Source: Rhodopseudomonas pseudopalustris
Lineage (GTDB): Bacteria; Pseudomonadota; Alphaproteobacteria; Rhizobiales; Xanthobacteraceae
Assembly: GCF_900110435.1 (NCBI RefSeq)
Contig: NZ_FODT01000001.1
Location: 248,001 to 312,000, forward strand
Reading direction: 5' to 3'
DNA: 64,000 nt
Shown: piece after piece, positions 44,367 through 54,869 of the stretch
Numbering within the stretch: position 1 is the first letter of the stretch
Layout of the letters: each line of letters opens with the position of its first letter
Translations under genes and position numbers: made by a program
Notes under the pieces: model-generated
What the model was told of the DNA's origin: nothing
The model's input: only the letters and a program-made list of their open reading frames with translations
The model's database searches: none

Positions 44367-44424
44367 GAATCGCCCGGAACTTCCTCATTCAGACCTGCCG
44401 CAGGTCGCTTCGAGACCTCACACC

Positions 44425-45213
44425 ATGCTCCATTCCGCCCTCATCAACGTCATGGTCAAGGCCGCGCGTCGCGCCGGCCGCAGCCTCAAGCGCGACTTCG
44501 GCGAAGTCGAAAACCTGCAGGTGTCGATGAAGGGCCCGGCGAATTTCGTCACGCTCGCCGACAAGCGCGCCGAGGAGATGCTGTACGAGGATCTCACCAA
44601 GGCGCGGCCGGGTTATGGCTTCCTGGGCGAAGAAGGCGGCATCCGCGAAGGCGCCGACAAGAGCCATACCTGGATCGTCGATCCGCTCGACGGCACCACC
44701 AACTTCCTGCACGGCATTCCGCATTTCGCGATCTCGATCGGCCTGCAGCGCGACGACACGCTGATCGCCGGCCTGATCTACAATCCGGCGACCGAGGACC
44801 TCTACATCGCCGAACGCGGCAAGGGCGCCTTCGTCAACGACAAGCGGCTGCGCGTCGCCGGCCGCAACCAGTTGCATGACTGCGTGATCGCCTGCGGCCT
44901 GCCGCATCTCGGCCGCGGCGATTTCGCGCTGAATCAGCGCGAGATGGCGGCGCTGCAGCCGAAGGTCGCGGGGCTGCGCCGGTTCGGCACCGCCTCGCTC
45001 GACCTCGCCGCGGTCGCCGGCGGCCGGTTCGACGGCTTCTGGGAGCGCAATCTGTCGCCCTGGGACGTCGCCGCGGGCATCGTCATGGTCCGCGAAGCCG
45101 GCGGCACTGTCGGCGACATCCACGGCGGCGACGTGCTGAAAACCGGCAACATCGTCTGCGGCAACGAAACCATCCACGCCGAGCTGGCGAAGATCCTGAA
45201 GCCGCTGGGCTGA
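44425..45213 (+). CDS. suhB: Inositol monophosphatase family protein
   Basis: A 262-residue Mg2+-dependent phosphatase with the metal-site motif WIVDPLDGTTNFLHGIPHFA and the second motif SPWDVAAGIVMVREAGG; GFLGEEGG supplies the other carboxylates. It dephosphorylates myo-inositol-1-phosphate and related sugar phosphates. SuhB-type proteins in bacteria can also bind RNA polymerase and NusA. The gene is monocistronic with its own start at 44425. Confidence 0.9.
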   Translation: MLHSALINVMVKAARRAGRSLKRDFGEVENLQVSMKGPANFVTLADKRAEEMLYEDLTKARPGYGFLGEEGGIREGADKSHTWIVDPLDGTTNFLHGIPHFAISIGLQRDDTLIAGLIYNPATEDLYIAERGKGAFVNDKRLRVAGRNQLHDCVIACGLPHLGRGDFALNQREMAALQPKVAGLRRFGTASLDLAAVAGGRFDGFWERNLSPWDVAAGIVMVREAGGTVGDIHGGDVLKTGNIVCGNETIHAELAKILKPLG

Positions 45214-45586
45214 ACGACTGCACGCGTCAACTCCGCAGCGAGAGCCGACGCTGCGGCCGCGTCCGGGCTTGGCCTCGTTCCGAGCCCGTGACGCGGAACG
45301 CTGGATGCACCCCGCTATTCCGACGGCCGTGCCGCGCTGCAAAAATTCGCAGCTTTTGATTTGGATCAACGCACGAAATTGGCGGCGCTGGATTATTTCA
45401 ACGTCAAGTCGTTCTGGCACTGATTGAATCAGGCTCGGAAATTCGGAACTTGATACGCGATACTCTTTTTTGTGCGAAGTCGAATTACTTTTCTCGAAAT
45501 TGCTGATCTCGAAGCTTCTTTCGTTTTAGCTATCTACACCCCCTGATCCTGACTGCCGTGCACTGCTCGTTTCAGCGTGAGGCCTC
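45214..45586. other. Intergenic region with FixK/FNR box
   Basis: A 373 bp region between the phosphatase gene and the ABM-like gene. The only clear element is the perfect FNR/FixK-type box at 45356-45369. The rest shows no gene. The 185 bases between box and gene are AT-richer than the surroundings and could hold the promoter and a leader. Confidence 0.55.
45356..45369. promoter_or_regulatory. FNR/FixK-type box upstream of the radical SAM run
   Basis: TTGATTTGGATCAA matches the TTGAT-N4-ATCAA consensus in all ten positions. In bradyrhizobia and Rhodopseudomonas such boxes are bound by FixK or FnrL under low oxygen. If centred near -41, transcription would start about 45404 and read the ABM-like gene and the genes behind it. 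Confidence 0.75.
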
Positions 45587-45910
45587 ATGGAGACCCATCA
45601 AGCGCACGCCATTCATCTGAAACTGCGCTGCCGTGGCCCCGACGGCCAAGATCTGATCGATTACTTGCGGGAAGCCGCCCCGTTCTATCAAGAACTGCCC
45701 GGCGTGACTATTCGGCTCCTGCGGAACGTCGAACGACCCGGCGAATTCGTCGAAATCGTCGAATATGCTACCCGTGAGGCATTCGATGCCGACCAGATAC
45801 GGATCGCAGAAGATCAGCAAATGCTGAAGCTATTGGGCCGCTGGCGCGCGCTTCTGACCGAACCCCCGGTGGTCGAGCATTACGAGGATATCAGCACGTC
45901 GATCGGCTGA
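45587..45910 (+). CDS. Small ABM-like protein, head of the radical SAM run
   Basis: A 107-residue protein starting at ATG 45587 (GAGG ribosome-binding site). It resembles an antibiotic-biosynthesis-monooxygenase/Dabb ferredoxin-like domain: IHLKLRCRGPDGQDLIDYLR, PGVTIRLLRNVERPGEFVEI and VEYATREAFDADQIRIAEDQ. Such proteins may be cofactor-less oxygenases, stress dimers or binding proteins; no catalytic residues can be assigned. It is the first gene after the FixK-type box and is separated from the radical SAM gene by a repeat-rich gap of about 290 bp. Confidence 0.65.
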   Translation: METHQAHAIHLKLRCRGPDGQDLIDYLREAAPFYQELPGVTIRLLRNVERPGEFVEIVEYATREAFDADQIRIAEDQQMLKLLGRWRALLTEPPVVEHYEDISTSIG

Positions 45911-46072
45911 GACGGGGAGACTATCTGCGGAGCGATACCCGCCCGCGTTTTTGACCAGAGACGACCATTTCGGAAAACCGCGATCCATTTTCCGGATCGC
46001 TCCAGGGGAGCAATTCCGTCGACAAGTCCTTCTCCGTCGACAAGCCTTTCATTCGCAACTCTCTTCGCACGA

Positions 46073-46136
46073 TAGTTCTCTCTCGCTAGTTGCCTCTCGA
46101 TAGTTGCCTCTCGATAGTTGCCTCTCGCTAGTTGTC
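46073..46136. repeat. 14 bp tandem repeat before the first radical SAM gene
   Basis: The unit TAGTTGCCTCTCGA (or ...CGC) occurs three times head to tail at 46087-46128, with partial units on both sides. It lies upstream of the ribosome-binding site and has no obvious coding role. Copy number could vary between strains. Confidence 0.8.
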
Positions 46137-46166
46137 TTGGCTCAATAACATTTTCATTCGAAGTCG

Positions 46167-46204
46167 TTTTCAGGAGAGCGCCATGTTTTCAGGAGAGCGC
46201 CATG
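46167..46204 (+). repeat. Duplicated 19 bp ribosome-binding site and start codon
   Basis: TTTTCAGGAGAGCGCCATG occurs twice head to tail (46167-46185 and 46186-46204). The second copy supplies the start of the radical SAM gene. The first copy opens an 8-codon frame (MFSGERHG) that stops at 46209, overlapping that start, so it forms a coupled upstream ORF. Confidence 0.8.
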
Positions 46205-47281
46205 GATGAGGCCGGCAAAGGCTTCGTTGAGTTCACCGCGCCGCTTTACGTCGCATGGGAACTCACACATCGCTGCAACGCGCATTGTGTGCATTGCTAT
46301 TCCAATTCCGGACCGGACGCCGACCTCGGCGATCAGTTGTCGCTGCAGAGCGGCCTGTCCTTGATCGACCAGCTGGCCGACGCCGGCGTCCTCGTGCTGG
46401 CGTTCTCCGGCGGCGAACCGATGCTGCACCGGCACTGGCGCGAACTGGTCGCTCATGCGGTGCAGCGCGGGCTCAGCGTCAACATCGCCAGTAACGGCTC
46501 CTGCATTACGGACTCCAATGCAGACGACCTACGCGATCTCGGCGTGAAGAGCGTCACGATCAGCATCGACAGTCATCTGCCAGCCATTCACGACGAATTC
46601 CGCCAGCTCGACGGATTGTTCGAGAAGGCGGTGAAAGCGATACACCTGCTTGTCGAGCGCGGCGTCAGGGTCGTGGTGGGATTCACCCCGACAAAGCTGA
46701 ACTGGCATGATGGCCGAGCGGTCATCGATCTGGCTCATTCGCTCGGCGCAGACGCCGTCAACCTGTCGGAATACGTCCCGGCCGGACGCGGCACGATCGA
46801 TCTGGCACTGGCGCCCGAAGACCTGCACGCCACCCTCCAGGAATGGATCCAGGCGCGGGAAGACTACAAGGGCCGGATGCAGATCATCTGGCACGACTGC
46901 CGGGTCGCGCTGCTCGTGTCCGAAGAAGATCAGCGCAAATATGTCGGCTGCGGCGCTGGCCGGCTCGTCGCCCGGATCCTGCCGGATGGCGCGGTGACGC
47001 CATGCGTGTTTCTCCCGACCCGAATCGGCAGTCTCGCATCGACCCCGTTCAAGGAGATGTGGGCGGAATCGGCGCTGCTACGTCAATTCAGGGAGCGCGC
47101 CGGCCATGTCGGCGGCAATTGCGGCGCTTGCGAGCATCTTGCCACCTGCGGCGGGTGCCGTTCGGTCGCCTACGCATATAGCGGCGGCGATGCATTGGCC
47201 GGCGATCCGCATTGCTGGATCCTGCCCGCCGAACCGCATCTGCCCGCAAAACTCCTGGAAGGCGAAGGACTGCCGGTCTGA
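46202..47281 (+). CDS. SPASM-domain radical SAM protein 1
   Basis: A 359-residue radical SAM enzyme. The cluster motif is C25, C29, C32 (CNAHCVHC) in YVAWELTHRCNAHCVHCYSN. GGEP follows at FSGGEPMLHRH, and the rest of the barrel is typical. The C-terminal SPASM domain (about 275-345) has the pattern CX12GX4C, then CX2CX5CX2C and a last Cys (GDPHCW), enough for two auxiliary iron-sulfur clusters. The protein resembles peptide-modifying and haem-type SPASM enzymes such as PqqE, MftC and NirJ. It is followed by a PqqD-like gene and a second SPASM enzyme. Substrate unknown. Confidence 0.9.
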   Translation: MDEAGKGFVEFTAPLYVAWELTHRCNAHCVHCYSNSGPDADLGDQLSLQSGLSLIDQLADAGVLVLAFSGGEPMLHRHWRELVAHAVQRGLSVNIASNGSCITDSNADDLRDLGVKSVTISIDSHLPAIHDEFRQLDGLFEKAVKAIHLLVERGVRVVVGFTPTKLNWHDGRAVIDLAHSLGADAVNLSEYVPAGRGTIDLALAPEDLHATLQEWIQAREDYKGRMQIIWHDCRVALLVSEEDQRKYVGCGAGRLVARILPDGAVTPCVFLPTRIGSLASTPFKEMWAESALLRQFRERAGHVGGNCGACEHLATCGGCRSVAYAYSGGDALAGDPHCWILPAEPHLPAKLLEGEGLPV

Positions 47282-47292
47282 CGGAGAGGTCG

Positions 47293-47586
47293 ATGTCCAA
47301 AATCACAAGCGACACGCTGTTCGAGCACACGCCCTGGGTCGTCGTGCGTCCCCAGAAGGACAATTATCTCTTCTACAATTCACGCACCGACGAACTGCAC
47401 CTCATTCCGGCGACCGGACACGCGGCCTACACGCTATGCGATGGCCTGCGAACGATCGACGACATCACGTCGGAGCTTTCCGACGTGATCATCGTCGAGC
47501 CGGATGTGCTGCAGCAGCGCGTCACGGAGTTTCTCGCGGCCCTGGAGACGCGCGGCCTGCTTGCGCGAGCTGATCGCCATGATTAG
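47293..47586 (+). CDS. PqqD-like RiPP recognition element protein
   Basis: A 97-residue protein starting at ATG 47293 with GGAGAGG upstream. The sequence has the PqqD/RRE pattern: VVVRPQKDNYLFYNSRTDEL, IPATGHAAYTLCDGLRTIDD, then VEPDVLQQRVTEFLAALETR followed by GLL. PqqD-like winged helix proteins bind leader peptides and deliver them to a radical SAM partner. It lies between two SPASM radical SAM genes, overlapping the second by eight bases, so the three are translationally linked. No precursor peptide gene is visible nearby. Confidence 0.88.
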   Translation: MSKITSDTLFEHTPWVVVRPQKDNYLFYNSRTDELHLIPATGHAAYTLCDGLRTIDDITSELSDVIIVEPDVLQQRVTEFLAALETRGLLARADRHD

Positions 47587-48625
47587 CAGCCGCCATCCCA
47601 CCGCAGGGCTCGTGCCGGAGGCACCGTATCATGTCGTCTGGCTTGCGACCGACGCCTGCACCGCACGTTGCCAGCATTGCTCGTCAAACTCCGCCAAGCA
47701 GTCGCCCGACGAACTGACGACGTCCGAGGCCATGGCGATGATCGATGATCTCGCCGCCGCCGGCGTGGTCGACCTCGGCATCTCTGGCGGGGAGTCGCTG
47801 CTGCGCGGGGATATCCTGGACGTGCTCGCTCACGCCAAGAAGCGGGGACTGGCGGTCGGGATCGCGACCAATGGCGCCAAGCTGACACCGCACCGGGCCG
47901 CGGCGCTGGCGGGCCTCGGACTGGACCGGCTGCAGGTCAGCCTCGACGGCTTCGCAGAGCAGCACGACGAATTGCGTCGCTGGCCGGGATTGTTCGAGCG
48001 CGCCCTCGCCACCATCGCCACGGCGCAAGCCGCCGGGTTGCGCGTCAATGTGTGCTGCACAATCACCAGGCTCAACGCCAATACACTGGAGCCGTTCGTC
48101 GATTTCATCGCAGGGCTCGGCATTGGCCGCCTCAACCTGTCGCGTTTCATCCCGACCGGCCGCGGCGACGACGCCCTCGATCCGGGCGACGCCAGATGGC
48201 GAAGCATCATCGAGCTTTGCGGCGGACTTCAGCGCAAATATCACCGGCGGCTCGCGATCGTCACGCATCTGGCGCAGCATATTCTGGTCGACCCGGAAGC
48301 CGGCGATCTGCCGGCGTTCACCGGCTGCCAGGCCGGGCGCGGCCAGGGCTGCATCAGCGCCAACGGCACAATCTACCCCTGCGTGCTGTTGCCGGTCGCG
48401 ATCGGCAATATTCGCAGTCACCCGTTTCGGCAAATCTGGACCGGGTCGCCGCTGATCCAGGCCTTTCAGGCGCGTGACAAGCTCGAGGGAGCTTGCGGCG
48501 CATGTGCGGTGCGTGACCGCTGCGGCGGCTGCCGCGCGGTCGCCTTCGCGGCCTCGGGAAATCCCTTTTCGTCCGATCCACGCTGCTGGGTTCACGAACC
48601 GCAACTTGGAAGCTGCCTGCACTGA
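47579..48625 (+). CDS. SPASM-domain radical SAM protein 2
   Basis: A 348-residue radical SAM enzyme starting at ATG 47579 inside the end of the PqqD-like gene. The cluster motif is C27, C31, C34 (CTARCQHC); GISGGESLLRGDIL replaces GGEP with GGES. The SPASM domain repeats the same spacing as in the first enzyme: CX12GX4C, CX2CX5CX2C and the final Cys in SDPRCWVHE. The two enzymes are about equal in length and clearly related, so they are a duplicated pair that has diverged. Possibly each acts on a different site or step of one substrate. Confidence 0.9.
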   Translation: MISSRHPTAGLVPEAPYHVVWLATDACTARCQHCSSNSAKQSPDELTTSEAMAMIDDLAAAGVVDLGISGGESLLRGDILDVLAHAKKRGLAVGIATNGAKLTPHRAAALAGLGLDRLQVSLDGFAEQHDELRRWPGLFERALATIATAQAAGLRVNVCCTITRLNANTLEPFVDFIAGLGIGRLNLSRFIPTGRGDDALDPGDARWRSIIELCGGLQRKYHRRLAIVTHLAQHILVDPEAGDLPAFTGCQAGRGQGCISANGTIYPCVLLPVAIGNIRSHPFRQIWTGSPLIQAFQARDKLEGACGACAVRDRCGGCRAVAFAASGNPFSSDPRCWVHEPQLGSCLH

Positions 48626-48646
48626 CAACCGAGGAGGAGAACGGCG

Positions 48647-49204
48647 ATGACAGATGAAGCAACGCATCGGCAGACCGAACTGGTCGAACGCTATTTCGAC
48701 TATGTCCGCGAATTACGCGCGGGAAAGGAAGAGGCGGTCGATAAGCTCGTCGAGCTTTGGGATGAGGATGGCACGTTCGAGTTCGCCGGCGCCCCTCCGG
48801 TGGTCGGCACGTTCAAGGGACGCAATGCGATCCACGCCCTGTACAAGAACCGCGTGAACGCCTGCGATATGCCGCTTCACCTCAGCGGCGCCGAGAAAGC
48901 GGAGGACAAGACCGCGCGGGGTGTCGCCCTGGGTCTGGTCGATACGCGCATCAACCGCGTCCGCAGCCTCGAGAAAGAGAAGGACGACAAGGTTGTCGTC
49001 GGTTGGACCACGGTGATCGGCACGAATGACAAGCAGGGCTTTCAGGTCTCCGGCAACCACACATTCAAGTTCAAGAGCGGACGGATCGCCTCGCTCGAAG
49101 TTGCGGTTTCGCCGAAAGCCGAACTGTCCGAGGGATTCCGCCTTGAAGGCCTCGCGGTCGACGACATCGGGCGGCTGTCGCTCGCGGCTTGGTGCGTGGT
49201 CTGA
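48647..49204 (+). CDS. NTF2-like (SnoaL-type) protein
   Basis: A 185-residue protein with AGGAGGAG before ATG 48647. The fold pattern is that of NTF2/ketosteroid isomerase-like proteins: LVERYFDYVRELRAGKEEAV, ELWDEDGTFEFAGAPPVVGT, KGRNAIHALYKNR, and a C-terminal beta sheet GFQVSGNHTFKFKSGRIASL. Members are isomerases, cyclases, dehydratases or simple ligand binders. It ends the plus-strand run 21 bases after the second radical SAM gene and converges with ubiV. A role in handling the product or substrate of the radical SAM pair is inference. Confidence 0.75.
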   Translation: MTDEATHRQTELVERYFDYVRELRAGKEEAVDKLVELWDEDGTFEFAGAPPVVGTFKGRNAIHALYKNRVNACDMPLHLSGAEKAEDKTARGVALGLVDTRINRVRSLEKEKDDKVVVGWTTVIGTNDKQGFQVSGNHTFKFKSGRIASLEVAVSPKAELSEGFRLEGLAVDDIGRLSLAAWCVV

Positions 49205-49230
49205 CAGGCGGCTTCATCAGGCTGGCGTGC

Positions 49231-49304
49231 GGAGCTCTAACTTTCTGTTCTGACGCGTTTTCTTCACGCGAACCGGTTTCCACCTCGCTCGAAAACGCTC
49301 CAGC
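49231..49304. repeat. Dispersed intergenic repeat, family A, copy 6
   Basis: Best-preserved copy: TTCTGACGCGTTTTCTTCAC, GCGAACCGGTTTCCACCTCG, CTCGAAAACGCTC. It lies in the convergent gap between the NTF2-like gene and ubiV. Confidence 0.75.
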
Positions 49305-49379
49305 ATGGATGGCCGGGCCGCACGCCCGCGCCATCCATGACCGCTGCATCTGGAGCGCAAGCCGGTCGGCGGGCTTGTG

Positions 49380-50300
49380 CTATGCCGCCGGCACGATCCG
49401 GCGGACGTCGCCGTTGTCGGTGACGAAGGCCGAGCCCGGTTTGGCGTAGAGGAAGCCGTTGGACTGCTTCAGCGGGTAAATCGCCGACAGTTTTTCCGTG
49501 CCCTCGTTGCCGGCGACCTTGCCGTCGACCACGTCGCGGAACAGCTTCGCCACCGCCACCATGTCGCATTGCTGCGGCGACAGCCGCATCGCGCCGACGC
49601 CGGCGTCACGCAGCTTGTCGACGTCGCCGAGCAGGCTGGCGGAGGTGTAGGACAGCGTCTGCACGCCGTTCATCGCCAGGAACGGCTCGTCGTCGAGCGT
49701 CGTCACCGCGAGGCCGTCGGGGTCCTGATCGCAGACGAACTTGCAATTGTCCTTCGACAGCTTGTTGAGCCGGGCGTGGTAGCAGCGCGCCGAGATCGCC
49801 AGCGGCACCCGGCCGAACGAGAACACCTCGAACGTCACGTCGGGCTGCGCCTGGGCGATGGCGCGGATCGCCGACAGCGGCAATTCCGGCGGCAGGCAAA
49901 TCCGCGTCGCGCCGCGCGACGCGAAGTATGTCGCGGTGGCTTCGTTGTAGATGTTGACGAACGGACCGATCGCATGCGGCTTGCCGCCGAGCATCCCCAG
50001 ACAGGTGAGATCGTTCACCTCCATGGTGAACGTGTCGTCGGCCGCGAGTTCGAGCATCGCCTTGCGCTCGCGCGGGAGCGACATCAGCGTCAGCGAGCCC
50101 ATCAGGACGGTCTTGCCGGCGGCTGCGAGCCGCTCGACCACCGCCGGAATATGCGGATCGAGGAACGGCGAGCGCTTCGAGCACACCACCTCGCCGACCA
50201 CCACGGTGTCGACCGGCGCCTCATCGGCGATGCGGAAATAGAAATCGCGCCACAACTCCGGCTTCCAGTTGTAGAGCACCGGTCCAAGCGTGAGTTGCAT
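49380..50300 (-). CDS. ubiV: O2-independent ubiquinone hydroxylation protein UbiV
   Basis: A 306-residue peptidase-U32-family protein. UbiV is the iron-sulfur partner of UbiU, needed to hydroxylate the ubiquinone ring without oxygen. The four cluster cysteines can be placed: one in VVVGEVVCSKRSP (about residue 40) and a CX12CX3C set in RCYHARLNKLSKDNCKFVCD, matching the known UbiV spacing. The N-terminus LTLGPVLYNWKPELWRDFYF is typical. It is the last gene of the ubiT-ubiU-ubiV unit on the minus strand, 164 bp after ubiU, and it converges with the radical SAM run. Confidence 0.92.
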   Translation of the reverse strand: MQLTLGPVLYNWKPELWRDFYFRIADEAPVDTVVVGEVVCSKRSPFLDPHIPAVVERLAAAGKTVLMGSLTLMSLPRERKAMLELAADDTFTMEVNDLTCLGMLGGKPHAIGPFVNIYNEATATYFASRGATRICLPPELPLSAIRAIAQAQPDVTFEVFSFGRVPLAISARCYHARLNKLSKDNCKFVCDQDPDGLAVTTLDDEPFLAMNGVQTLSYTSASLLGDVDKLRDAGVGAMRLSPQQCDMVAVAKLFRDVVDGKVAGNEGTEKLSAIYPLKQSNGFLYAKPGSAFVTDNGDVRRIVPAA

Positions 50301-50391
50301 GGGGTTCGCCTCGCTGTGAGTTGGCGGCGGCGCAGTCGCGCGCTGCCTCGATCGTCATTGTCGCCGGCGCTGAACAGCGCCAGCTTTCGTG

Positions 50392-50481
50392 AGCGCCAGA
50401 CCTGTTAGCGCCGGGTCTGTTAGCGCCAAGTCTGTTAGCGCCAGGTCTGTTAGCGCCAGGTCTTCTAGCGCCAAGTCTTCT
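50392..50481. repeat. 15 bp tandem repeat at the ubiU stop
   Basis: Six head-to-tail units of AGCGCCARGTCTGTT (plus-strand view, one or two changes per unit). On the minus strand each unit reads (K/Q)-T/V-(W/R)-R-stop, that is, the last four codons and stop of ubiU. The repeat arose by expansion of the ubiU 3' end and fills half of the ubiU-ubiV gap. Confidence 0.9.
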
Positions 50482-51442
50482 TGTAAGCGCCCGTCGTGGT
50501 CGACTGGCCTTCGCTGAGGCCGCGCAACGCGTCGGGCGGCACCGGGCGGCCCTCGTCGAGCGCGGTCAGCACCTGGCGGAACGTCTTCACCACGCGCTCG
50601 ATATAGGCGCGGCCGCGCTGGCGGCCTTCGATCTTCAGCGCAGCGACGCCGGCGGCGCGCAGCTCCGGCAGCATCGTGGTGGCGTCGAGCGAGGCCGGGT
50701 CCTCGAACAGATAGCCGCAGCCCTCGTCGGTCTGGTAGCGGCCCTTGCACAGCGTCGGATAGGCCGCCGCCTCGCCCTTGGCGAATTTGTTGATGGTGAA
50801 GTCGCCGAGCCGCGACACCAGCGCGCCGTTCTCCTCGCGATACTGGATCGAGCCCGCCGGCGAGCAGACGCCGTCCATGTTCGGCGACTTGCCGGTGGCG
50901 TAGGACGACAGCGAACAGCGGCCCTCCTCCATCACGCACAGCCCGCCGAAGATGAACACTTCGGTCTCGCACTTCACTTCGCGGGTGATCGCCGCGATCT
51001 CCTGCACGCTGAGCACGCGCGGCAGCACCACGCGCTTGGCGTTGAAGGAGTCGACGTAGAACTTGATCGAGTCCGGGTTCGCGGCCGCGGCCTGCACCGA
51101 GACGTGCAGGCGCTGCTGCGGATGGGTCCGCGCGCAGTAATCCATCACGCCGACATCGGCGAGGATCAGCGCATCGGCTTCGGCCTCGACCGCATCGTCG
51201 ACCGCGCGCTGCCACAATTCGACATTGCCGGCGCGGGCGAAGGTGTTGATCGCCACCAGCACGGTGACGCCGTAGCGATGCGCGTGCGCGATCGACTCCC
51301 GCATTTCCTCGCGGCTGAAATTCAGCCCCGGGAAGTTGCGCGCATTGGTCTCGTCATTGAAGCCGCAATAGATCGCATCGGCGCCGGCGCCGACGGCATC
51401 GTGCAGCGCCGCGGGGGTCCCCGCCGGGCAAATCAGTTCCAT
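50465..51442 (-). CDS. ubiU: O2-independent ubiquinone hydroxylation protein UbiU
   Basis: A 325-residue peptidase-U32-family protein beginning ELICPAGTPAALHDAVGAGA. Four cysteines match the UbiU cluster ligands: CX6C in GGLCVMEEGRCSLSSYATG, then a Cys 16 residues on (DGVCSPAG) and one about 38 further (YPTLCKGRYQ). With UbiV it forms the heterodimer that adds hydroxyl groups to the ubiquinone ring anaerobically. It starts inside the ubiT end (10-base overlap). The C-terminal codons are part of a 15 bp tandem repeat. Confidence 0.93.
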   Translation of the reverse strand: MELICPAGTPAALHDAVGAGADAIYCGFNDETNARNFPGLNFSREEMRESIAHAHRYGVTVLVAINTFARAGNVELWQRAVDDAVEAEADALILADVGVMDYCARTHPQQRLHVSVQAAAANPDSIKFYVDSFNAKRVVLPRVLSVQEIAAITREVKCETEVFIFGGLCVMEEGRCSLSSYATGKSPNMDGVCSPAGSIQYREENGALVSRLGDFTINKFAKGEAAAYPTLCKGRYQTDEGCGYLFEDPASLDATTMLPELRAAGVAALKIEGRQRGRAYIERVVKTFRQVLTALDEGRPVPPDALRGLSEGQSTTTGAYKKTWR

Positions 51443-51990
51443 GATCGTCCTCCGCCTTCGACGCCCATCTCATCGCGATATTGCGGCGGCGCGGCAACGA
51501 TGCTGCGCAGGATTCGCTCGATCGGACCCGCCAGCGGGCCGAACCACGCGACCGACTCCTTGAGGAAATCGACGCGCGAATCGTCGATCGCATTGCGCAG
51601 CGCGACCACCGCTTCCATGTCGCCGTCGATCTCGATGTCGCGCGAGAAGAACAGCGCGTCGCCGTCATACGAACCGTCGGTCATGCCGATCAGCGCCGAC
51701 AGCGGGCCCGCGATGCGCGCGTCGATATTCGCCGGCAGCTTGCGCACCACCGTGACCCGCGGATTCATCCGCCGCGGCTCGAGCACGAACGCGATCGGCA
51801 GATCGGTCGGCACGAGGCCGTAACGCTTGCCGGTGTGCGAGCCGAGGCGATCGAAGATTCGGGGATGACGACTGCGGATCTCCCGCAGGCAAATGCCGAG
51901 CAACACCTGCAGGGGCAACAGCGGCAAGACCCGCGTCGCAAGGGCAAGCGGCGCGGGCATCCTGGAGACGGACGAATTGGATACCGACAT
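51433..51990 (-). CDS. ubiT: Ubiquinone biosynthesis accessory lipid carrier UbiT
   Basis: A 185-residue SCP2-domain protein. After a short N-terminal tail it reads PLLPLQVLLGICLREIRSRH, then the SCP2 sheet LPIAFVLEPRRMNPRVTVVR and ALIGMTDGSYDGDALFFSRD. UbiT is the anaerobic counterpart of UbiJ and is thought to bind isoprenoid quinone intermediates and present them to UbiU-UbiV. It is the first gene of its unit, just behind the FixK-type box at 52041. The genetic position beside ubiU and ubiV supports the name. Confidence 0.9.
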   Translation of the reverse strand: MSVSNSSVSRMPAPLALATRVLPLLPLQVLLGICLREIRSRHPRIFDRLGSHTGKRYGLVPTDLPIAFVLEPRRMNPRVTVVRKLPANIDARIAGPLSALIGMTDGSYDGDALFFSRDIEIDGDMEAVVALRNAIDDSRVDFLKESVAWFGPLAGPIERILRSIVAAPPQYRDEMGVEGGGRSWN

Positions 51991-52040
51991 GAGCCACCTT
52001 CTGAGAAACCATTCGTTTAACTGGTCCCACCGGTACTTCT

Positions 52041-52054
52041 TTGCGCCTGATCAA
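52041..52054. promoter_or_regulatory. FixK-type box between ubiT and ubiD
   Basis: TTGCGCCTGATCAA fits the Bradyrhizobium FixK2 pattern TTG(A/C)-N6-(T/G)CAA and has 8 of 10 positions of the FNR consensus. It lies in the 114 bp shared by divergent ubiT and ubiD, about 50 bp from each start, so it may activate one or both units at low oxygen. Confidence 0.65.
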
Positions 52055-52104
52055 AGACAGACACGATCGCAAATGCTGACCAGAACCGTCCGCACGGAGA
52101 GACC

Positions 52105-53643
52105 ATGCTGAACCGCGTTAAACCGCCTTTTCCGGACCTTCGCGCGTTCGCCGCCTATCTGGAATCCCGCGGACAGTTGCACCGCATCCGCAAGCCGGTC
52201 TCGGTGGTGCACGACCTCACCGAGATTCATCGCCGCGTGCTGCACGCCGGCGGCCCGGCGCTGATGATCGAACAGCCGATCAAGGCCGATGGCACGCCGT
52301 CCGAGATGCCGATGCTGGTCAATCTGTTCGGCACCGTCGAGCGGGTGGCGTGGGGCCTCGGCATCCTGCCCGAGAATCTGCCGCAGCTCGGCGAGGCACT
52401 CGCCGAAATGCGCGAGCCGGCGCCGCCGCAGAGCCTGACCGACGCGCTGAGCAAGCTGCCGATGGCGAGGGCCGCATTGTCGATGCGCCCGAAGATGGCC
52501 CGGACGGCGCCCGCGCAGGACGTGGTGCTGACCGGCGACGCTGTCGATCTCGGCCGGCTGCCGGTGCAGATCCCGTGGCCGGGCGAGCCGGCGCCGCTGA
52601 TCACCTGGCCGCTGGTGTTCACCAAGCCGCCGCCCGGCGTGGCAGGCACCGACAATGTCGGCGTCTACCGGATGCAGGTACTGGGCAAGGACCGCGTCAT
52701 CATGCGCTGGCTGGCGCATCGCGGCGGCGCCAAGCATCACCATCAATGGGCGGCGCAGAAGCGCGAGATGCCGGTCGCGGTGGTGATCGGCGCCGATCCG
52801 TCGATGATCCTGTCGGCGGTGCTGCCGCTGCCGGAGACGGTGTCCGAAATCAAGTTCTCGGGCCTGCTGCGCGGCGACCGGCCGAGCCTGACGCCCTGCG
52901 TCAGCATTCCGCTCAACGTGCCGGCCGATGCCGAGATCGTGCTGGAGGGCCTGGTGTCGCCGACCGAGACCGCGCCGGAGGGGCCGTATGGCGACCACAC
53001 CGGCTATTACAACGCGGTCGAGGAATTCCCGGTGATGCGGATCACCGCGATCACGATGCGGCGCAACCCGATCTATCTGTCGACCTACACCGGACGGCCG
53101 CCGGACGAGCCGTCGCGGCTCGGCGAAGCGCTCAACGACGTGTTTCTGCCGGTGGCGCGGCGGCAGTTTCCCGAGATCGTCGATCTGTGGTTGCCGCCGG
53201 AAGCGTGCTCCTACCGAATCGCGGTCGCCTCGATCAAGAAACGTTATCCCGGCCAGGCGCGGCGGCTGATGATGGGGCTGTGGTCGATGCTGCCGCAGTT
53301 CAGCTACACCAAGCTCCTGATCATCGTCGACGACGACGTCGACGTCCGCGAATGGGCCGATGTGATGTGGGCGGTGTCGACCCGCTGCGACACCTCGCGC
53401 GACATGGTGGCGATCAGCGACACCCCGATCGATTATCTCGACTTCGCCTCGCCGAAATCCGGACTCGGCGGCAAGCTCGGCATCGACGCCACCAACAAGA
53501 TCGGCACCGAGACCGAGCGCGAATGGGGCAAGGTGCTGGAGATGGACGACGATGTGATCGCGCGCGTCGACGCGATGTGGCCGGGCCTCGGGCTCGCACC
53601 CGCGTTGACGCCGGCGGCGGCGCAACGCAAGCTGTTGCGATGA
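52105..53643 (+). CDS. ubiD: UbiD-family prFMN-dependent decarboxylase
   Basis: A 512-residue member of the UbiD family, reversible decarboxylases using prenylated FMN. The N-terminus DLRAFAAYLESRGQLHRIRK and active-site parts GTDNVGVYRMQVLGKDRVIM, KHHHQWAAQKREMPVAVVIG and ETAPEGPYGDHTGYYNAVEE are typical. The Glu-x-Pro-Tyr-Gly-Asp part and the E-R-E motif equivalents are intact as far as visible. In ubiquinone synthesis UbiD removes the carboxyl of 3-polyprenyl-4-hydroxybenzoate. Adjacent to ubiX and divergent from ubiT, so this copy probably serves the low-oxygen quinone route. Confidence 0.92.
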   Translation: MLNRVKPPFPDLRAFAAYLESRGQLHRIRKPVSVVHDLTEIHRRVLHAGGPALMIEQPIKADGTPSEMPMLVNLFGTVERVAWGLGILPENLPQLGEALAEMREPAPPQSLTDALSKLPMARAALSMRPKMARTAPAQDVVLTGDAVDLGRLPVQIPWPGEPAPLITWPLVFTKPPPGVAGTDNVGVYRMQVLGKDRVIMRWLAHRGGAKHHHQWAAQKREMPVAVVIGADPSMILSAVLPLPETVSEIKFSGLLRGDRPSLTPCVSIPLNVPADAEIVLEGLVSPTETAPEGPYGDHTGYYNAVEEFPVMRITAITMRRNPIYLSTYTGRPPDEPSRLGEALNDVFLPVARRQFPEIVDLWLPPEACSYRIAVASIKKRYPGQARRLMMGLWSMLPQFSYTKLLIIVDDDVDVREWADVMWAVSTRCDTSRDMVAISDTPIDYLDFASPKSGLGGKLGIDATNKIGTETEREWGKVLEMDDDVIARVDAMWPGLGLAPALTPAAAQRKLLR

Positions 53644-54242
53644 GTACATCGCATCGAATCGTCGTCGGCATCAGCGGCGCATCGGGCGCGGCGGTCGGCC
53701 TGCGCATCGTCGAACTGCTGGCCACCGCGGATTGCGAGCTTCATCTCGTCGTCTCGGCGGCGGCGGAGCGCACCATCGCCTATGAGGTCGGCGCCAAGGC
53801 GCTCGAGCACACGATCGAGATCGTCCACCGCCATCACAGTTTCAACGACGTCGGCGCCAGCATCGCGTCGGGCTCGTTCCGCACCAGCGGCATGATCGTT
53901 GCGCCGTGCTCGATCCGCACGCTGTCGGCGATCGCCACCGGCAATCTCGACAATCTGCTGGTACGCGCCGCCGACGTGCAGCTCAAGGAGCGCCGCCGGC
54001 TGGTGCTGATGCTGCGCGAGACGCCGCTGCATCTCGGGCATATCCGCAACATGGCGCAGGTCACCGAAATCGGCGGCATCGTCGCGCCGATCTCGCCAGC
54101 GTTCTACCAGCGGCCGCGCTCGTTGAGCGAAATGATCGACCACATCGCCTTGCGCGCGATCGGCCTGCTCGGCCTCGACGATCTGCAACTATCAGCGCCG
54201 GAATGGTCCGACGACACCCCGCCGACCTGCCCGAAAATCTGA
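53640..54242 (+). CDS. ubiX: Flavin prenyltransferase UbiX
   Basis: A 200-residue protein whose ATG at 53640 overlaps the ubiD stop by four bases (ATGA). Features: VVGISGASGAAVGLRIVELL with the flavin-phosphate loop, SGSFRTSGMIVAPCSIRTLS, LLVRAADVQLKERRRLVLML and PISPAFYQRPRSLSEMIDHI. UbiX attaches dimethylallyl phosphate to FMN to make prenyl-FMN for UbiD. The pairing with ubiD gives a complete decarboxylation unit. Confidence 0.95.
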   Translation: MSTSHRIVVGISGASGAAVGLRIVELLATADCELHLVVSAAAERTIAYEVGAKALEHTIEIVHRHHSFNDVGASIASGSFRTSGMIVAPCSIRTLSAIATGNLDNLLVRAADVQLKERRRLVLMLRETPLHLGHIRNMAQVTEIGGIVAPISPAFYQRPRSLSEMIDHIALRAIGLLGLDDLQLSAPEWSDDTPPTCPKI

Positions 54243-54275
54243 TTTGAGAATTCTGGTTCGGGTCAAACCGGACCC

Positions 54276-54869
54276 TCACGGACACGGCGGAATCCGCTCC
54301 GGCGTCACCGCGCCGGGCAACTCCTTGCGCAGATCGACGTCGCGCACCAGCGGATAGAAGTCGCCGCCGCGCTCCGTCTTCAGATAGGTGGTGAGAAGCG
54401 GACTGGCCGGCAGCGGCCCGATCCGGCAGGCCTCGGCGCCGACGCCGAGCGACAACGAGCCGCGCTTTCCGCGCGCCTTGTGCGCCGCCATCTGCTCGCG
54501 CAACGCGGCGATCTGCGGCAGGTCGACGGGATCGATCCGAAACGCATAGATCGCCGTATTGCGGGTGAGTTCGCCGGACAGCGAAAGCAATTCGGCCGGA
54601 TCGTCGAGTTCGGTCAGCACCAGCGTCTGCTCCTGCTTGGTCTCGTCGACCGCAACCGCGATCTTCAGCGACACGCCGCGCGGGCGCGGGCGCAGGCCCT
54701 GCGGCAGCCGCACCGCGATCCGCAGCGCGGCCGGATCGGCGGCGGCGAAATCCGTGCGCGCCAGCTTGACCATCGACGATACAGGCATCGAACTGCAGGC
54801 CGGCAGACTTGCGAGCGCGGTCAGGGCGATGGCGAAGAGCGGGCGGCGGGAGTGGGGTTGGAGGCTCAT
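54276..54869 (-). CDS. Lipoprotein of unknown function
   Basis: A 197-residue protein. ATG 54869 has GAGGA upstream; ATG 54881 is an alternative. The signal has a lipobox LPAC (ASLPACSSMP), so it is probably a lipoprotein. The mature part begins SMVKLARTDFAAADPAALRI, with beta-rich segments and a conserved-looking ending PGAVTPERIPPCP. No recognised domain. It is convergent with ubiX. Confidence 0.7.
   Translation of the reverse strand: MSLQPHSRRPLFAIALTALASLPACSSMPVSSMVKLARTDFAAADPAALRIAVRLPQGLRPRPRGVSLKIAVAVDETKQEQTLVLTELDDPAELLSLSGELTRNTAIYAFRIDPVDLPQIAALREQMAAHKARGKRGSLSLGVGAEACRIGPLPASPLLTTYLKTERGGDFYPLVRDVDLRKELPGAVTPERIPPCP

Follow-up and report, generated by a model that had tools for sequence, protein, structure and literature searches.

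A putative radical SAM cassette of the RiPP type, with an NTF2-fold protein as candidate precursor, inserted beside the ubiquinone genes of Rhodopseudomonas pseudopalustris

Several described pathways combine a radical S-adenosylmethionine (SAM) enzyme of the SPASM type with a small protein that handles a ribosomally made precursor. In the pyrroloquinoline quinone (PQQ) pathway a SPASM radical SAM enzyme and the chaperone PqqD act on such a precursor, and the pathway also has the M16 peptidases PqqF/G. Mycofactocin biosynthesis relies on MftA, MftB and MftC, which are, respectively, a precursor with a conserved C-terminal tail, a RiPP (ribosomally synthesized and post-translationally modified peptide) recognition element protein and a SPASM radical SAM enzyme. 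The SynChlorMet and GeoRSP systems (TIGR04248-04251, TIGR04302-04303) also join a SPASM radical SAM enzyme to a PqqD-like protein, and SynChlorMet has two radical SAM enzymes. Here we describe a run of five genes in a 64,000-nucleotide stretch of the Rhodopseudomonas pseudopalustris genome (contig NZ_FODT01000001.1, positions 248,001 to 312,000; hereafter the window), which encodes an ABM-like small protein, a radical SAM enzyme (rSAM1), a PqqD-like protein, another radical SAM enzyme (rSAM2) and a protein of the NTF2/SnoaL fold. We propose, with a probability of roughly 0.7 and by comparison of sequences, that this run is a horizontally acquired, probably FNR/FixK-controlled radical SAM cassette of the RiPP type, in which the NTF2 protein is the precursor and carries a C-terminal core. 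Among the papers listed by searches of an open-licence library, none was seen to describe the cassette.

All five genes are encoded on the plus strand. The first specifies a protein of 107 residues (45587..45910) and is followed by rSAM1 (46202..47281), the PqqD-like RiPP recognition protein (47293..47586) and rSAM2 (47579..48625), the starts of which are inferred, that of rSAM1 from its homologues; the last gene encodes the 185-residue NTF2/SnoaL-fold protein, the proposed precursor (48647..49204). Both rSAM proteins contain Radical_SAM and SPASM domains according to Pfam, and the CxxxCxxC motif and the auxiliary-cluster cysteines of SPASM radical SAM enzymes are present. They share 39% identity, and 11 cysteines of rSAM1 are invariant across 16 sequences. 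The third protein is recognized as PqqD (32.8 bits against a cut-off of 23.4), and the NTF2 protein exceeds the cut-off of the SnoaL_2 family. Pfam bears out four members of the run that a first-pass annotation of the window had reported, and the label of the fifth as ABM-like is weak: the window protein has no Pfam match, nor does a homologue in locus L037, and the homologue in L044 scores 22.4 where the cut-off is 23.1. Immediately 5' of rSAM1, at 46080-46204, there are short tandem repeats (GTTGCCTCTCG...) and a doubled stretch of ribosome site and ATG.

When compared with NCBIfam (the best 25 of 67 families for rSAM1, the best 25 of 60 for rSAM2 and 2 of 2 for PqqD), the rSAM proteins and PqqD reached none of the cut-offs. 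The best solved relatives of rSAM1 are PqqE and SkfB; the two rSAM proteins score 126.6 and 118.3 bits against 381 for the PqqE equivalog, and 144 and 158 against 265 for MftC, the radical SAM enzyme of mycofactocin. Equivalogs of the heme d1 and heme b enzymes (NirJ, AhbC/D) score below their cut-offs as well, the best being AhbD with 204 against 500 bits. The cassette also scores 202 against 400 for the GeoRSP radical SAM enzyme, 24.7 against 100 for the GeoRSP PqqD and 108 against 400 for ScmE. Membership in the heme d1, heme b, PQQ, mycofactocin, GeoRSP and SynChlorMet systems was rejected on these scores, which are far below the cut-offs. PADLOC matches to pVip (72 and 66 bits) cover only the N-terminal radical SAM core, and rSAM1 scores 64 against 180 for the NCBIfam viperin. 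In gene content, the cassette shares with the PQQ pathway its enzyme and chaperone and, in the Bacillota copies described below, a pair of M16 genes, but it has two SPASM enzymes instead of one and an NTF2-fold putative precursor in proteobacteria, its tail does not contain the Glu-x3-Tyr of PqqA, and pqqB and pqqC were not recognized in the cassettes. The conserved C-terminal tail, recognition protein and SPASM enzyme recall mycofactocin, whereas there are again two enzymes here and no other mft genes were recognized. Proteusins likewise combine a large folded leader, which is nitrile-hydratase-like, with a C-terminal core, and an excerpt of PMC10858898 reports a proteusin case in which a C-terminal Trp is modified by bromination; here the leader would have an NTF2/SnoaL fold, and the enzymes are different.

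Related loci were collected by scanning GTDB contigs with the rSAM1 alignment; as the scan relies on exact matches to short peptide patterns and retained the 80 best of 120 relatives, it is no census. The scan yielded 78 loci, of which 21 are strong (L039-L059, 42-74% identity), and identity then drops to 36% or less. Of the strong loci, 19 have the full set of rSAM1, PqqD and rSAM2; the remaining two, L048 and L057, are contigs from a single assembly, and each carries one part. Three layouts were recognized. The order seen in the window, (ABM)-rSAM1-PqqD-rSAM2-NTF2, recurs in Bauldia, Afifella, Hyphomonadaceae, Gallionella, a metagenome-assembled genome (MAG) of Acidobacteriota and others; the ABM-like gene is restricted to the equivalent place in L039, L040, L042 and L044, and a gammaproteobacterial MAG (L046) has the NTF2 gene ahead of rSAM2. 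The order NTF2-rSAM1-PqqD-third rSAM-rSAM2 is found in Indioceanicola, Pseudovibrio, a second Bauldia, Rubrivivax and an Opitutaceae MAG. The third rSAM was examined with Pfam in L038 and L054, where both proteins have a Radical_SAM domain and B12-binding exceeds the cut-off in L054 but narrowly misses it in L038; it was assigned in L050 and L056 from similar open reading frames (ORFs) and in L051-L053 and L059 from spacing alone. Finally, Paenibacillaceae have rSAM1-PqqD-short peptide-M16-M16-rSAM2-YCII-MFS-MOSC, where M16 and MFS were tested with Pfam in L047, YCII and MOSC in L055, and the other Bacillota copies were judged by resemblance.

The evidence that carries the precursor assignment is a conserved C-terminal tail. 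In the window it comprises the last 17 residues of the NTF2 protein, L169 to V185 (49151..49201, plus strand), which we propose as the core peptide. A tail pattern is matched by one ORF per locus in 19 of the 21 strong loci and is missing from L043 and L057, which are cut contigs; by eye, all 19 tails fit D-[ILM]-G-x-L-[SA]-x-x-A-W-x-V-[VIA]. None of 11,270 ORFs in the 57 weak loci matches the search pattern, and in the window the NTF2 ORF does so alone among 759. Across 16 NTF2 sequences, seven of the 11 invariant columns fall within the last 17 residues (L169, D173, G175, L177, A181, W182, V184), and only F17, G48, F140 and I147 are invariant in the body. Between the two groups of NTF2 proteins (63 pairs), identity is 21% for the body and 50% for the last 17 residues. 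Two other candidate precursors were dropped: a scan of the gap at 45911-46201 for a separate small precursor found only ORFs of 15-50 codons, none bearing the tail, and the 49-residue hypothetical protein annotated 5' of the Indioceanicola cassette does not have it either. That cassette (NTF2, rSAM, PqqD, third rSAM, rSAM) lies on a plasmid of Indioceanicola profundi, where TIR-domain and SIR2 genes follow it in a defence-like neighborhood (L038 16403-19500).

The same tail is found in a different carrier in Bacillota. In Fontibacillus, Paenibacillus vini, Paenibacillaceae UBA6304 and Saccharibacillus it ends a short ORF directly 3' of pqqD, with 47 residues from the likely start and the ending DLGELS[LV]IAWRVI; two of these ORFs were submitted to Pfam and gave no match. 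In L047 the tail peptide is directly followed by two M16 peptidase genes, with an MFS transporter downstream. One of the two M16 proteins has a stretch HxxEH, which we take to be the M16 peptidase motif, and the other has none, as in a heteromeric M16 pair, to judge from sequence. Heteromeric M16 proteases act in lanthipeptide pathways, for example that of the paenithopeptins, according to a portion of PMC10885120. Our main reason for reading the tail as the substrate is that it is found both fused to a larger protein and free, each time next to the same trio of enzymes. The cassette would then include a ribosomal precursor whose C-terminal core is conserved, as expected of a RiPP pathway, and of the options raised in the first-pass annotation the modification of a peptide is the one best supported by sequence.

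The cassette is rare in broad samples. Besides the window's own genome, it is carried by two of 396 genomes of the order (G225 and G343; rSAM2 at E 1e-50), by none of 384 genomes of a class sample and, with an rSAM1 profile at E 1e-90, by none of 397 phylum genomes; these samples overlap in part. It occurs in isolates of Pseudomonadota and Bacillota and on MAG contigs of Acidobacteriota and Verrucomicrobiota. The layouts separate in the rSAM1 tree, where the Opitutaceae contig pairs with Rubrivivax, which suggests that the cassette crossed from one phylum to another or that this contig was wrongly assigned to the MAG. In the Pseudovibrio loci L050 and L051, the genome search showed stops within the rSAM2-like match, perhaps only at the match end.

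Two FNR/FixK-type boxes had been reported to bracket this region. The first, TTGATTTGGATCAA at 45356..45369, is a perfect palindrome and the sole perfect FNR box of the window, upstream of the cassette; the second, TTGCGCCTGATCAA at 52041..52054, between ubiT and ubiD, has 2 of 10 positions mismatched and is weak by itself. The latter is kept in three loci of the same genus (L118-L120), which are 90-92% identical there, so that its conservation is little informative. A box with at most one mismatch precedes 10 of 19 related cassettes, in comparison with 81 of 5389 (1.5%) random control segments of the same loci (binomial P 5e-14, which is overstated as the rows are related). This count used 450 bp 5' of the first aligned codon, an anchor that was changed after a box had been seen at the edge of a doubtful start. 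In a first count, which took the 400 bp before each automatically assigned start codon, 8 of 19 cassettes had a box at the same tolerance, against 0.36 expected from shuffles; in its control, a box was also present in 7 of 150 upstream regions of ORFs of at least 250 residues, cassette genes being among these. Both counts omit L043, L046 and L057, which lie at the end of a contig or have an incomplete cassette, and the window is outside the 19. Probable control of the cassette by FNR/FixK is thus predicted from sequence, and the idea of low-oxygen control survives with a box that belongs to the radical SAM run itself.

The first-pass annotation had tied the run to the neighboring ubiquinone genes. 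These were present in the order it claimed: ubiV (49380..50300), ubiU (50465..51442) and ubiT (51433..51990) on the minus strand, and ubiD (52105..53643) and ubiX (53640..54242) on the plus strand, all native neighbors outside the cassette. UbiV (366 against 275 bits), UbiU (501 against 440) and UbiT (63.7 against 46.9) pass their NCBIfam equivalog cut-offs, and UbiD and UbiX pass subfamily cut-offs. The ubiTUV genes of the O2-independent ubiquinone pathway are therefore complete, with ubiV after ubiU, in agreement with the order published in the part of PMC11707229 that covers it. When a DNA query of positions 44400-54400 was compared with 15 genomes of the same genus, the ubi block and the inositol monophosphatase gene were matched in all 15. 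The 4.17 kb in between (45214..49383), which contain the perfect FNR box, were uncovered in all 15 among the matches listed, a dispersed 71-bp repeat excepted. A protein search with rSAM2 found no match above ~34% identity in the genus, and no close copy turned up among 60 relatives searched; within the genus, the cassette was found in one genome out of 16. When four empty sites were aligned by BLAST, similarity stopped at 45213-45216 and at 49380-49384, positions that coincide with the ends of the two flanking genes, so that the inserted segment spans the whole intergenic gap. The GC content is 58-61% in the 5' half of the segment, compared with 66-68% around it, and the 3' half is not low. 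Near the 3' end of the insert lies an element of 71-75 bp (49230-49304) with at least 17 other copies in the genome and more across the genus, resembling REP (repetitive extragenic palindromic) intergenic repeats.

The gap itself seems to be prone to insertion. The inositol monophosphatase gene and ubiV are less than 400 bp apart in nine of the 15 genomes, and ~2.1-2.5 kb of other sequence separates them in G004, G011 and G015, namely alpha/beta hydrolase and TetR genes in G004 (assigned by Pfam), similar ORFs in G015 and, in G011, a chemotaxis receptor. In G009 and G014 the inositol monophosphatase gene lies ~10 kb from the ubi block, and in G006 the two are on separate contigs. It appears from these comparisons that the cassette was acquired horizontally, and its position beside the ubi genes needs no functional reason and is probably an accident of insertion.

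We therefore consider it very improbable that the radical SAM set forms part of an O2-independent ubiquinone regulon, with the making or modification of a quinone or of a cofactor for it as its task. Such a role would fit the adjacency in the window and the shared type of FNR box, though the box on the ubi side is weak. UbiU is also over its cut-off in nine of ten other carriers that are proteobacterial or labeled only 'Bacterium', and ubiU is encoded elsewhere in the genome in all five named alphaproteobacterial carriers, in comparison with 30 of 289 genomes in an even, broad sample of the class, drawn without regard to lifestyle. On one contig of G814, the cassette (L040) lies ~24-27 kb from ubiXDTUV, and narGHJI and a moeA-like gene (L040 86-6979) are encoded ~3-10 kb upstream of the cassette. 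Counted across genomes, however, the adjacency is confined to one strain, an outcome that the annotation had itself named as contrary to its proposal, and no ubi genes matched at E 1e-3 in the sequence fetched around the 21 strong loci (at most 10 kb on each side, less at contig ends). Furthermore, UbiU is over its cut-off in 10 of 15 carrier genomes, and no UbiU over the cut-off was seen in Fontibacillus, Saccharibacillus, an Acidobacteriota MAG, an Opitutaceae MAG and one Proteobacteria MAG (G815, G816, G820, G825 and G826 in our numbering), a gap that may reflect incompleteness in the MAGs G815, G816 and G825. A ubiquinone-specific role was rejected for the lack of conserved adjacency and for these carriers without UbiU over the cut-off. 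In Proteobacteria the cassette goes with a low-oxygen way of life, and no evidence was seen that it takes part in making quinones. Radical SAM peptide genes in anaerobic islands may have an independent parallel in Hyphomicrobium denitrificans (Hden_0548-0568), where, according to an excerpt of PMC12423496, pqqAED-puuD-serC-pyrD lie near ubiXDTUV and share two regulators with denitrification genes; that set, as described there, has a pqqA-like precursor and is distinct from the cassette.

In our reading of the NTF2 protein as precursor, an unusually large leader or carrier would be formed by the folded domain, and the core would be the last 13-17 residues, ...D-D-I-G-R-L-S-L-A-A-W-C-V-V-COOH in the window. 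PqqD would bind and present this tail for modification by the two SPASM radical SAM enzymes. The invariant W, variable x and invariant V resemble the i,i+2 motif (aromatic-x-x) of triceptides (PMC11002830), which are made by 3-CyFE radical SAM enzymes, and our first guess is therefore a C-C crosslink from Trp(i) to Val(i+2) at W182-x-V184; a second candidate site lies near D173-x-G175-x-L177. In Bacillota the free tail peptide would apparently be excised by the M16 pair and then exported. As the window cassette encodes no recognized peptidase or exporter, the modified tail may remain on the NTF2 protein there, or an unlinked peptidase may free it.

Several points weigh against the proposal that the NTF2 protein is a precursor under low-oxygen control. 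Val is not among the crosslink partners of triceptides (Arg, Asn, Asp, Ser, Ala) named in the relevant part of PMC11002830. No peptidase or exporter was recognized in any of the proteobacterial cassettes. Nine of the 19 cassettes have no FNR box before them, including all four Bacillota tested; the best match there to TGTGA-N6-TCACA, presumably the Bacillus Fnr-type site, had 3 mismatches. The alignment rows are related (four are Pseudovibrio), and the conservation and box counts are not independent. In the AlphaFold model of the NTF2 protein (mean pLDDT, the model's own confidence score, 83.9), the body adopts the NTF2 fold, and apart from it residues 171-182 of the C terminus form a helix (pLDDT ~81, lower at the end), which could be an ordinary docking helix.

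Such a helix would also serve a SnoaL-type enzyme that is recruited to the rSAM/PqqD complex while the true substrate is encoded elsewhere. Foldseek searches of the PDB lend this some appeal, as the NTF2 fold is often catalytic and the matches include limonene epoxide hydrolase and PhzA/B, the best being an NTF2-like protein (E 1.8e-7, TM-score 0.55 by query and 0.69 by target). We nevertheless regard it as unlikely, for the four invariant columns of the body make no obvious catalytic set, and the Bacillota tail sits on a stand-alone short peptide without an NTF2 domain, beside two M16 genes. Within the precursor proposal, the product might be a released redox cofactor resembling PQQ or mycofactocin rather than a signalling or antimicrobial peptide. 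The relationship of rSAM1 to PqqE, the recurrent FNR boxes and the nar genes near the L040 cassette point in that direction, but no redox enzyme that would use the cofactor is a shared cassette gene in the loci listed (neighbors beyond the cassette were not systematically compared), and the MFS transporter of the tested Bacillota copy fits an exported product, so that a cofactor of this kind seems rather doubtful.

On the precursor proposal, the cassette would represent an apparently undescribed class of radical SAM RiPP pathway, in which the core is readable, the leader is a folded NTF2 domain, the enzymes are two in number and low oxygen is the likely switch, and the tempting neighborhood of ubiquinone genes is probably an accident of insertion. 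A speculative extension, to which we give little weight, is a new class of protein-borne cofactor: the two radical SAM enzymes would crosslink the tail at low oxygen, and the tail would stay attached and fold back as a ligand or redox group, while Bacillota would release and export the peptide. If this were true, the NTF2 fold would be at once the leader and the functional home of the product.

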